From positions 1 to 64,000 of the forward strand of contig JADLBV010000111.1 in assembly GCA_020847545.1 (NCBI GenBank): 64,000 bases of DNA, in the 5' to 3' direction. The translations under genes and the position numbers were made by a program. The notes beneath the pieces are model-generated. The model was not told the DNA's origin. It saw only the letters and a program-made list of their open reading frames with translations, and ran no database searches. This DNA is from Phycisphaerales bacterium. GTDB taxonomy: Bacteria > Planctomycetota > Phycisphaerae > Tepidisphaerales > Tepidisphaeraceae. Below, piece by piece: positions 22,962-27,852 of this stretch (positions are counted from its first letter, which is position 1; the number at the start of each line of letters is the position of its first letter).

Positions 22962-23735
22962 ATGAAAAAGCGCAGTGCGTTCACGCTCGTGGAATTGCTG
23001 GTCGTCATCGGCATCATAGCTCTTTTGATCAGTATCCTGCTGCCGGCTCTCAACAAGGCGCGTTTGTCGGCCAAGCTTGTGCAGTGCCAGAGCAATCTTC
23101 GGCAGATCGGACTTGGGGTTGCCATGTACGCCAACGACTGGCGCGGCGTCTGGCCGAGGTATTACGACGGTGACACCTCGTACAGCCCGGCCGGTGACAG
23201 CGGCGGCTGGACGACAAACGTCCTGTGGTATCAATACGGCGGGTGGGGGCAGGGCAGCCCAGGCAACTGGCAGGCGCTGGGGCGAATCTATCCGTATATG
23301 AAGAATCAGCAGGTCTTCTTCTGCCCCAACGATGAGTTTAATGCCGGTTACGCGGGGTTGAATTTCGCCTCATTTCCGCAGAGTTTGCCCAGTCCATCCT
23401 ACAACGTGTTTGGCAGCTATTGCCTGCGTGGATGGAGGCAGCCTGTCAGCAATACATGGGGCTCACCCGATGTCGATCCATTGGGAATACCGGGAAAGAC
23501 GCTGACAAGCCTGAAATATCGGGCCTTGGCATCCTGCTTTTTCATGTGGACGCCGGGTTACAACTGGCCGGTGATGTTGCATCGGACGATGGGTAAATAT
23601 CCGGTTCTTTACGGAGATGGGCACGTCACGGCGATCTCCAAGCCATCCTGGTTGGATCTGTCATCCCCGCCGGACTTCTGGAACATCACGGCAAAGCAGA
23701 CACAGTTCTGGAATACAGCGAATCACGATAGATAA
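22962..23735 (+). CDS. Pseudopilin-like protein (prepilin-type N-terminus)
   Basis: 257 residues. Leader MKKRSA, cleavage A|FTLVE (Ala, not Gly, at -1), hydrophobic helix, then [21 protein letters not shown] as in the sister proteins. The C-terminus has LYGDGHVTA in the position of the DGH tail. It lies between the third PEP-CTERM gene and the frameshifted DUF4838 gene. Filament-forming or secretion-pilus partner functions are possible, but nothing in the sequence fixes one. Confidence 0.87.
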
Positions 23736-23753
23736 GGTTTTTTACGGACAGAC

Positions 23754-26029
23754 ATGAATAAATTATTTCAAGCGGCCGCACTGTTGCTGGCAATGGTCAA
23801 TGTGTCATCAGCCGCGGTGGCGCTGGTGGAAGGGGGCAAGCCGACCGGCCGGATCGTCGTGCCCGATGAGGCGACGGCCGGGGAGACATTCGCGGCCGAG
23901 GAACTCCAGACTTTGTCCAAAAAATAAGCGGCGCCAAGCTGGAGATTGTCAAGGCGGACCAGAAATGGGAGGGTCCAGCGATCCTGGTGGGCAATCAGCC
24001 GGGCAACCGTGATGTGATCGACCAACTCAACAAAGAGCATGGAGAGACCATCGATGCGTTCGCGGTGGTGGGCAAGGGGGATCGCCTGTCGCTGGTGGGG
24101 CGTTCGGATGATTCAACCATCTGGGCGGTGTGGCAATGGCTCAACAATCAGGGTGTGGTGTGGGTCATGCCGGGGGAACACGGAACCTATGTTCCAAAGA
24201 ATCAGACCATCGAGATCGTGGAGATTCACGAGATTGAAGCGCCCGGAGTCAACCAACGGGGCGGCGGATATGGCCTGCCCGATGAGGATGCTCCCGAGGG
24301 GTTTAACACCAAGGAACATGGTGTGACGGCCGGCCAACTGTTCGCATCGCGGATGCGGTTTAACGAGAATAGGGCCATTGAGGTCAAAGACACGATCGTG
24401 GCACTGGGTTCGGGGCATTCCTATGAGCATTATCTGCCGGCGTCGACCTATTATAAAGCCCATCCCGAATGGTTTAACCTGATTGATGGCAAGCGAATGG
24501 ATGGGGCGAGGGGGACGCAGGTCTGTTTCACCAACCAGGAGGCGGCGGCACAGGTGGCCCGGAATGTGGAGGTTGAGATTCGCCATGAATTGGACCGGGG
24601 CATCCCCATCGAAAGGTTGCCGGTCTCCATATCGCCCAATGACTGGAATGCCATGTGCGAGTGCGACAATTGCAGGAAGCTGATCGACAAGGATGGATCT
24701 GCCAGTTCGCTGGTGACTCATTTCTGCAACCTCGTGACGGCGGAGATCCGCAAGGTCTATCCGAAGGCCACCACCAAGTTTTATGCGTATGACAACTATG
24801 CCACTCCCCCTGATTATGCCAAACCCGGGCCGGGAGTGAGACCGCAGATCGTGTTCTGGTCATCCGCCATTGCGTTCGCGGCCAATTCGGCACAGCCGAT
24901 GTTTTCGCAGGCGAATCACAGGTATCGCGATGGGTTTGCCGCGTGGGAAAAGATCAGCGAGGCCCTCTCCGCCCACACCTATTACGCCCATTATACGTGG
25001 ATCACACCATGGCCCATGATCACCCAGATGTCGAAGGACATCCCACACATGGCGGCCGATCCGAAGTTTTGCGGGATGTACAGCGAACTGCACCTGCACT
25101 GGGGGACGCAGGGGTTGAATTTGTGGCTTTATCCCAAGCTGTTGTGGAACCCGAAGCTGGATGTGAAAAAGGCGATCAAGACCTATTGCCAGGCGGCGTA
25201 TGGGCCGGCCGCCATCCAGATGGAGGCTTACTACCGGACGGTTCAGGAGTCGATGGATAAACAGGGGTATATCTGCGGATATGCGGTTGAGATTCCGCAT
25301 GTTTTGACGCCGGAAGTGGTGCAAAAGGTCAATGGATTCATCTCCCAGGCCGAAGGGAGGCTGGATCAGATGGACCCGGACACGCGCTGGCGGACGGAGC
25401 TGGTGTGCAAATCATGGCGGGCCAGCGCCAAATTCGCACAGGCGACCCGTCTGTTCGTGCATGGAAATGGGCCGGCCGATCGGGCGAAGATTCTGTCGTT
25501 GGTTGATGAGGTGAAACAATTCGCCGATTCGCCGATGGGAAAATGGGCATTTGAGCAACGGATCGCCACCCAGACGATCGATTCAGTCGCGAGGAGTCTG
25601 AATGTTGACCTGGCGGCACTGCCGGTCGGTAAGCAGATGTTCAATGATGAATTCAACATGGGTGGGGCGATCAAGTTTTATGCCAAGATGCAGGGTTGGC
25701 AGGTGGGGATGTGGGGTTATTCGCTGCCGGTGAATGGAAGCGGTGAGATGGAAATACCGCTGAAGGCGGCGGAGGGGCATCGGATCACCTCGGCGCGGGT
25801 GCAATGGAGCATGGCCAACCCGCAGCGGGTGGTGGGGACGTTGTCGGTGGTTTCGGACGATGGCGCTGAGCGGGTGTTGACCGATGATGTGCAACAGATG
25901 ATCAAGGGCGTGGATGTGCCGGCCGAGGCGCTGGGTGGTGTTGTTCGGCTGAAACTTCGTCTGTTAAGCCAATACCACGATCCATCCATCGTGTTGACAG
26001 GATGTAATATCGAGGCGCAGGTGGAATAG
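23754..26029 (+). CDS. Secreted DUF4838 protein interrupted by a -1 frameshift at an A6 run
   Basis: The start ATG at 23754 opens a signal peptide (MNKLFQAAALLLAMVNVSSA) and a domain that reads through GETFAAEELQTLSKK, then stops (TAA at 23925-23927) right after an A6 run at 23919-23924. In the -1 frame the text continues without a gap (KISGAKLEIVKADQ, then ILVGNQPGNRDV) to 26029. The joined product, about 758 residues, would be a normal DUF4838 protein: alpha-glucuronidase-like N-terminus, YYKAHPEWFNLIDGKR and MCECDNCRKLIDKDG. Either one A is missing from the assembly, or the ribosome or polymerase slips, or the gene is newly broken. It is a paralogue of the 13596-15917 product. Confidence 0.8.
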
Positions 26030-26085: not shown

Positions 26086-27852
26086 ATGTTGTCGTCTAAA
26101 TCGAGTCGATTTTACATTGATTATGCCACCGCTGATCAATGTGTATGCGAGGATGCGGCTCGCATCTTGCGCACCCGGATCCAGAGTAGGTGTGGCGTCG
26201 TGTATGATCGGGGCAACCCGCAATTTGTTCTGACATTGAAGCAAGACCGGGCATTGTCACCGGAGAGTTTCGTCATTGAACTCCCCGCGGCCAATTCGGC
26301 GGTCATTCGAGGCTTGGACAAACTCGGCATCCTGTATGGAGCGGGGCGATTCCTGCGTGACTGCACCTTTCATGAACAGGGATTCAGCACTGGTTTATGG
26401 ACGGGAACCAGCCGGCCGGCCAAGCCCGTGCGCGGAATCTACCTGGCAACCCATTTCCATAACTATTATCACGATGCGCCCGTTGAACAAATCATTGAAT
26501 ATCTGGAGGAACTCGCACTGTGGGGGTTCAATGTGGTGCAGGTCTGGTTTGACATGCATCACTATACGGACATTGATGATCCAAAAGCCCGGCGGATGAT
26601 TGACCGCCTGAAGCGCATACTTGTCGGCGCCAGGCGGATCGGCATGCGTGTCTGTCTGGTCAACCTCGGTAATGAAGCATTTGCCGACAGTCCTGTTGAA
26701 CTGCGTGCCGATTTCAACACCGGGCGTTCGATTTATCGTTGTGAATTATGCCCAAGCAAACCAAAGGCAAGGGAATTGCTGCTTCAGTGGTTCAATGAGG
26801 TGCTGGATGCGTTTGCCGAGGTGCAACCGGATTTCATTGCATTTGGGCCGTATGACCAGGGGGGTTGCGCCTGTGGCAACTGTGCGCCTTGGGGAAGCAA
26901 TGGATATTTGAAAATCTGTGAAGCGAAGGCGCGTCTTCTTAAAAGTCGGTGGCCCGATGCGAAGGTGATTCTCAGCACCTGGCTGTTTGATCTTGAACAT
27001 GATCAGGGTGAATGGCGGGGGTTGGCGGATGTTTTTGCCCGTGGGGTCGATTGGTGTGACTATATTCAGGCGGATTCCCATACCAACTATCCTGAATTTC
27101 CGCTCACGCAGGGTGTGCCGGGCCATCTTCCGCTGTTGAATTTTCCCGAGATCAGCATGTGGGAGATGCATCCGTGGGGTGGTTTTGGAGCCAATCCGTT
27201 GCCGTCGAGATTCCAAAGGTTGTGGCAAACGGTCAAGTCGGAAGTCTCCGGCGGCTTTCCCTATTCAGAGGGACTATTTGAGGACATCAACAAGGTCTTG
27301 TGCGCCCGGTTTTATTGGGATCCGGATCGATCTGCCGACAGCATTCTCCGGGAATATATCGCTTATGAGTATTCTCCCGATGTGGTGGAGGAGGTCATTG
27401 AGGCAATCGATATTCTGGAGGCCAATCACAATCACTCCTGGTATGTGGACTGGAGGCTGTGTCGACAGATTCGACGTCCGATCCGATTTCGTAAGGATCC
27501 CCGCCGGGCATACGAACTGATCAAACAGGCCGATGCCCGTCTGACCGCCAACGCCCGCGGACGGTGGCGCTGGCGGATACTTTATCTGCGGGCTTTGATC
27601 GACCAGGAACTTGCACCCTACGAAGGATATTGGGGCAACGAGGTCTGTGAATCGGCTTTTGAGGAGTTGACGGAAATCTATCATGCCCAGAAGGCGGAGA
27701 CCACATTGGCGCCGCCCACCCGCCGGGCGCGCCGGCATTTGCGGACCAGTGAGAACGATTTTTACATTAAAGAAGGAATAAAATCGGGATTGATTGATCT
27801 CGATTCGGAAAACATGCCAATTGTCGGATTGACGGATACACAGGACGACTGA
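26086..27852 (+). CDS. Uncharacterised GH-like protein with alpha-glucuronidase-type N-terminus
   Basis: 588 residues with no signal peptide, so probably cytosolic. The first 120 residues resemble the N-terminal domain of alpha-glucuronidases and GH20 enzymes (QFVLTLKQDRALSPESFVIEL, IRGLDKLGILYGAGRFLRD). A TIM-barrel-like body follows (RGIYLATHFHNYY, NVVQVWFDMHHYTD, DFIAFGPYDQGGCACGNC). The CACGNC motif copies the CxCxNC seen in both DUF4838 proteins of this window, so it may be a distant relative. Catalytic residues cannot be named. It lies 12 bases upstream of the GH4 gene in the third operon. Confidence 0.65.
   Translation: MLSSKSSRFYIDYATADQCVCEDAARILRTRIQSRCGVVYDRGNPQFVLTLKQDRALSPESFVIELPAANSAVIRGLDKLGILYGAGRFLRDCTFHEQGFSTGLWTGTSRPAKPVRGIYLATHFHNYYHDAPVEQIIEYLEELALWGFNVVQVWFDMHHYTDIDDPKARRMIDRLKRILVGARRIGMRVCLVNLGNEAFADSPVELRADFNTGRSIYRCELCPSKPKARELLLQWFNEVLDAFAEVQPDFIAFGPYDQGGCACGNCAPWGSNGYLKICEAKARLLKSRWPDAKVILSTWLFDLEHDQGEWRGLADVFARGVDWCDYIQADSHTNYPEFPLTQGVPGHLPLLNFPEISMWEMHPWGGFGANPLPSRFQRLWQTVKSEVSGGFPYSEGLFEDINKVLCARFYWDPDRSADSILREYIAYEYSPDVVEEVIEAIDILEANHNHSWYVDWRLCRQIRRPIRFRKDPRRAYELIKQADARLTANARGRWRWRILYLRALIDQELAPYEGYWGNEVCESAFEELTEIYHAQKAETTLAPPTRRARRHLRTSENDFYIKEGIKSGLIDLDSENMPIVGLTDTQDD

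Follow-up and report, generated by a model that had tools for sequence, protein, structure and literature searches.

The DUF4838 domain (PF16126) is annotated as GH163 in the relevant passage of PMC9870897, and the endo-beta-N-acetylglucosaminidase activity of GH163, as described in an excerpt of PMC10154615, is the hydrolysis of the GlcNAc-Man bond. The singleton frameshifts of GeneTack are characterised by one break, by two halves that are both homologous to an intact protein, and by a site that is not conserved; in the sections of PMC3711429 that deal with them, singletons validated by BLASTp are expected to be mostly sequencing errors, not genuine indels. Thermus dnaX, with nine As, and mxiE are slippage genes in which a run of As lies near an out-of-frame stop codon (PMC1088944, section on these genes). 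According to the same source in its pertinent parts, many genomes show signs of selection against A/T runs once these reach nine nucleotides, although this varies, and shorter runs may allow slippage in some genomes. In an excerpt of PMC5574713, insertion frequency climbs exponentially with run length; a restored frame is found there in no case.

The gene described here lies on the forward strand of the window, i.e. the whole 64,000-nucleotide stretch of DNA that was analysed, and shares features with each of these systems. Like other PF16126 proteins, its product has the Pfam match and a signal-peptide-like start; the difference is that its N-terminal part is severed by a frame break. Like the GeneTack singletons, in so far as the cited sections describe them, it has one break at a non-conserved site and two halves homologous to an intact protein, but here relatives place the break within a few bases, from contig sequence alone. 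As in the part of PMC1088944 concerned with dnaX and mxiE, an A run lies near an out-of-frame stop; in the window, however, the run comprises just six As, is not conserved, and is away from the site of frame loss. The break is real in the contig sequence but most likely ordinary, involving no unusual way of gene reading. A recent one-base deletion is the most likely cause, followed by an assembly or consensus error; programmed slippage at the A run is unlikely.

The upstream frame (23754-23927) opens with ATG 23754, encodes a signal-peptide-like N terminus and the first part of the N-terminal domain, and ends at a premature TAA (23925-23927) that is directly abutted by the run AAAAAA (23919-23924). 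The downstream frame (23912-26029), which is the -1 frame relative to this start, carries the rest of the gene and comprises 701 uninterrupted codons, out of about 757 for the whole gene. It is open from about 23870 to TAG 26027-26029, so that both frames are open in the overlap 23870-23924; in it, the A run forms part of CAA AAA ATA (Gln Lys Ile). The DUF4838 domain (about 24170-25234) lies inside the downstream frame, with a PF16126 match of 166.8 bits (gathering cut-off 26.6; E 8.7e-49 for the protein from 23924). The gene product is predicted to be of a GH163-like glycoside-hydrolase type. These results bear out an earlier note on this DNA, which had described a DUF4838 gene with a signal peptide at the start from 23754, a frame stopping at TAA, and a -1 frame that carries the domain onward. 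As causes, the note had put forward an assembly error, programmed slippage and a recent pseudogene. A search of the PDB by sequence at E 0.01 gave no match.

The gene is located in a sugar-use cluster. Its neighbours include a LacI-type regulator, a LamG/PEP-CTERM protein, a pseudopilin-like protein and a GH4 enzyme; further along the cluster there are a GlmS-like sugar-phosphate isomerase, two PfkB-type kinases and a class II aldolase-like protein. For the adjoining 588-aa protein (26086-27852), neither Pfam (E 0.1) nor NCBIfam (E 0.001) gave a match.

The two closest relatives of the window gene are both found in one genome of the same genus (G001). One is the syntenic gene (L013, contig C33), intact within its contig; the other is a related gene (L012, contig C17), intact over its full length, to which the downstream protein is 56% identical. 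An intact homologue with the ancestral frame is thus present, and the start codon of the relatives is the equivalent of 23754. In a family search at E 1e-60, matches were found in two of 26 genomes, both in the genus; with a full-length query at 1e-30, a search of the order across the same genomes matched five of the 26, and a scan of the collection added one distant locus. L012 and L013 are 95% identical over their first 140 codons (about 420 nt) and about 59% identical afterwards, the high identity beginning at the gene start. This N-terminal tract looks like a copied one, such as gene conversion or a swap of N-terminal parts might leave. Since the near-identical tract spans the site of the break, the two relatives count as about one witness. 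In G001, the end of contig C18 (L031) is identical to the start of C33 (L030) over exactly 127 bases, which lie within the DUF4838 orthologue; on the C18 side a stop codon follows right past this overlap, and then other sequence. The orthologue may also be decaying in G001, or this stop may reflect a truncation, or misleading contig ends or an assembly branch.

At the position of the break, the L013 protein reads EEIQ-A-FVQKMSGA and that of L012 EEIQ-T-FVQKMSGA. The corresponding codons are CAG GCG TTT GTC CAG AAG ATG AGC in L013 and CAG ACA TTT GTC CAG AAG ATG AGC in L012; the window has CAG AC TTT GTC CAA AAA ATA AGC, one base short of the relatives' CAG-NNN-TTT. The family frame is therefore the -1 frame already from TTT 23912. 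Homology of the upstream frame to both relatives extends up to CAG 23907-23909, and its residues past this Gln are outside the family frame. When a single gap was slid through 23900-23929, a gap before 23912 gave 40 matches in the 50-nt stretch with each relative, as compared with 39 for a gap at 23911 or 23913-23915 and 35-36 anywhere in 23919-23925. In the optimal global alignments, as enumerated (301/350 with L013 and 280/280 with L012), the sole isolated one-base gap lies before 23912 with either relative. The remaining gaps are in the signal peptide and at 23962-23970; the L013 alignment also has two 2-base gaps that compensate each other at 23874-23880, and the L012 alignment end-of-alignment noise near 24208-24233. 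A pattern built from the relatives and the window, TTTGTCCARAARATRAGCGG, has only one match in the window, a perfect one at 23912-23931.

More distant homologues contribute a modest preference for the upstream site. Against a family profile of 27 homologues, the upstream junction scores 155.7 bits and a junction at the A run 151.7 bits (a difference of 4.0 bits); with L012 and L013 removed, the scores are 109.8 and 107.2 bits (difference 2.6). All 34 loci supplied for this profile have an open frame; 27 were left once same-gene duplicates were removed, and any row with 60 residues or fewer in the cropped block would have been excluded as well. A codon-usage model was not relied on as independent evidence of the site: although its first best path switches at 23907/23908, a switch at 23924 scores only 0.12 nats lower, so that the model is neutral between the upstream site and the A run.

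Judged from these comparisons, the frame is lost where a single base is missing, about 8-13 nt before the end of the A run and not at the run itself; the loss site is bounded by 23909-23915, with the 23911/23912 boundary as the best position. This departs from the earlier note, which had placed the shift at the A run: homology in the -1 frame begins 5' of the run (FVQKISGA in the window against FVQKMSGA in both relatives), and the gap fits 23912 better. Slippage or a miscount at the run as the origin of the break is rejected on the relatives' sequence, the alignments and the sliding gap. Seven As at the run would encode TLSKKISGA, not the TFVQK/AFVQK-type peptide of the relatives, so that a search of reads over 23915-23930 for seven As, as had been proposed, is misplaced; the relevant bases are about 23905-23918. 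A stop codon directly after a homopolymer can be a bystander, formed by ordinary codons read out of frame, and comparing relatives before the run is blamed avoids a false case of slippage.

The reading that we favour, with fair though incomplete confidence, is a recent, inactivating one-base deletion, which would make the gene a very young pseudogene or a loss allele. A secreted DUF4838 gene of the GH163-like glycoside-hydrolase type would have lost one base in the codon after CAG 23907-23909 (at about 23911/23912). Translation from ATG 23754 would then run out of frame for five codons and halt at TAA 23925, itself presumably a chance product of the out-of-frame CAA-AAA-ATA-AGC. The full-length product would be lost, from all cells in the case of a pseudogene and from some of the population in that of a loss allele. 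The break, its position against the relatives and the intact downstream frame are seen in the sequence; that the organism itself carries the deletion, and that the gene no longer functions, we infer.

The downstream part has a dN/dS of 0.14 against L013 (149 codons) and 0.34 against L012 (705 codons); for the short upstream part, the value is 0.63 with both relatives (52 codons, signal peptide included). The value of 0.14 suggests that the gene was under constraint before the lesion. Silent divergence between the window and L013 is high (dS 1.27). In neutral simulations at 0.02 substitutions per site, the probability of an open frame is 0.18 without indels, 0.03 with 0.05 indels per substitution and 0.005 with 0.1; 701 open codons become improbable once divergence exceeds some 0.01-0.05 substitutions per site, a limit that varies with the indel rate. 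An open downstream frame is therefore improbable at a divergence far below that from L013, and the lesion must be recent if the gene is dead. A long simple repeat of the kind expected in a phase-variable gene was sought at the break, and only CAGACTTTG was found; the only direct repeat close by, two 10-nt copies at 23875 and 23893, is not a tandem array.

A consensus error at the loss site is possible, and we would give it perhaps a quarter of the weight: the organism would have the base at about 23911/23912 that the contig lacks, and its gene would be intact. A single lesion in a gene of about 757 codons with a fully open downstream frame is also what consensus errors look like, and the treatment of singletons in the quoted sections of PMC3711429 points the same way. 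The loss site, however, is outside any long homopolymer (CAGACTTTG), and no other unexplained frame break except a transposase remnant was found in a sample of 291,822 bases of G000, the genome to which this contig belongs. The sample consists of 13 stretches, with about 4,000 bases of overlap between the window and L033. A frame model over it gave 32 close same-strand frame changes, and in 30 of these a start codon lies at most 60 nt from the upstream stop, which is the arrangement of neighbouring genes. Unexplained breaks are thus rare: the two junctions without a nearby start codon are the DUF4838 gene and the transposase remnant, in L054. The latter is itself frame-broken (about 17746-19236 of L054, minus strand); its halves match DDE_Tnp_1, one of them just under the gathering score, and it adjoins a fragment with a sub-threshold rve_3 match.

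The type of assembly also speaks against an error. Contig ends overlap by 125-127 bases, which is typical of short-read assembly: the first 125-127 bases of this contig recur at many other contig ends of G000, and two contigs of G001 overlap by exactly 127. These shared ends indicate short-read k-mer assembly, which makes a long-read homopolymer error unlikely. In short-read k-mer assemblies, single-base consensus indels outside long runs are uncommon.

It is improbable that the downstream frame is translated alone from an internal start such as GTG 23987-23989, its first start codon past the break, to give a cytoplasmic protein that has neither the signal peptide nor the first part of the N-terminal domain. 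The 680-aa open reading frame from this GTG does hold the entire DUF4838 match, but the codon sits 62 nt beyond the stop, its use omits conserved sequence encoded from 23912, and the relatives begin at the equivalent of 23754.

Slightly less probable again is that slippage of RNA polymerase or of the ribosome, at the A run or elsewhere in 23870-23924, brings a fraction of the product back into frame. This interval is open in both frames, and the TLSKKISGA peptide that a shift at the run would produce scores only slightly below the family-like peptide in the profile comparison above, whose 27 rows all come from frames open across the break position. Yet the run is not conserved; both relatives carry CAGAAGATG here, in frame and without an A run. 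The zero frame at this position, TCC AAA AAA TAA, gives C AAA AAA and not the slippery heptamer (X XXY YYZ) that programmed -1 ribosomal frameshifting uses in this frame. Nor are runs of six or more As avoided: 180 open reading frames of at least 200 aa in G000 contain 62, against a mean of 50.0 (sd 5.0) in synonymous-codon shuffles. A stimulatory RNA structure was sought at 23925-24010 with a fold test without pseudoknots, in which this stretch is no more stably folded than its shuffles (z -0.58; 60 of 200 shuffles were as good), and an Rfam search of 23500-24400 gave no match. Promoter-like and terminator-like consensus matches inside the gene were set aside and given no weight.

Least probable of all is a one-base loss compensated by slippage at the A run, itself born of third-position G-to-A changes (CAG AAG ATG to CAA AAA ATA, a direction that the relatives' codons would suggest), with the secreted glycosidase kept at a low level; if true, six As would be unusually few for a slippage site, in a genome that is moderately GC-rich (window average 56%).

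At its start, the window contains a MITE-like element (1-186), an imperfect palindrome with terminal inverted repeats CAGGGCAA...TTGCCCTG. A search of both strands of G000 gave 81 matches to it, corresponding to about 40 places; many of the matches lie at the ends of contigs. The palindrome folds far better than its shuffles (z -9.3), and its Rfam matches are all below the gathering scores.
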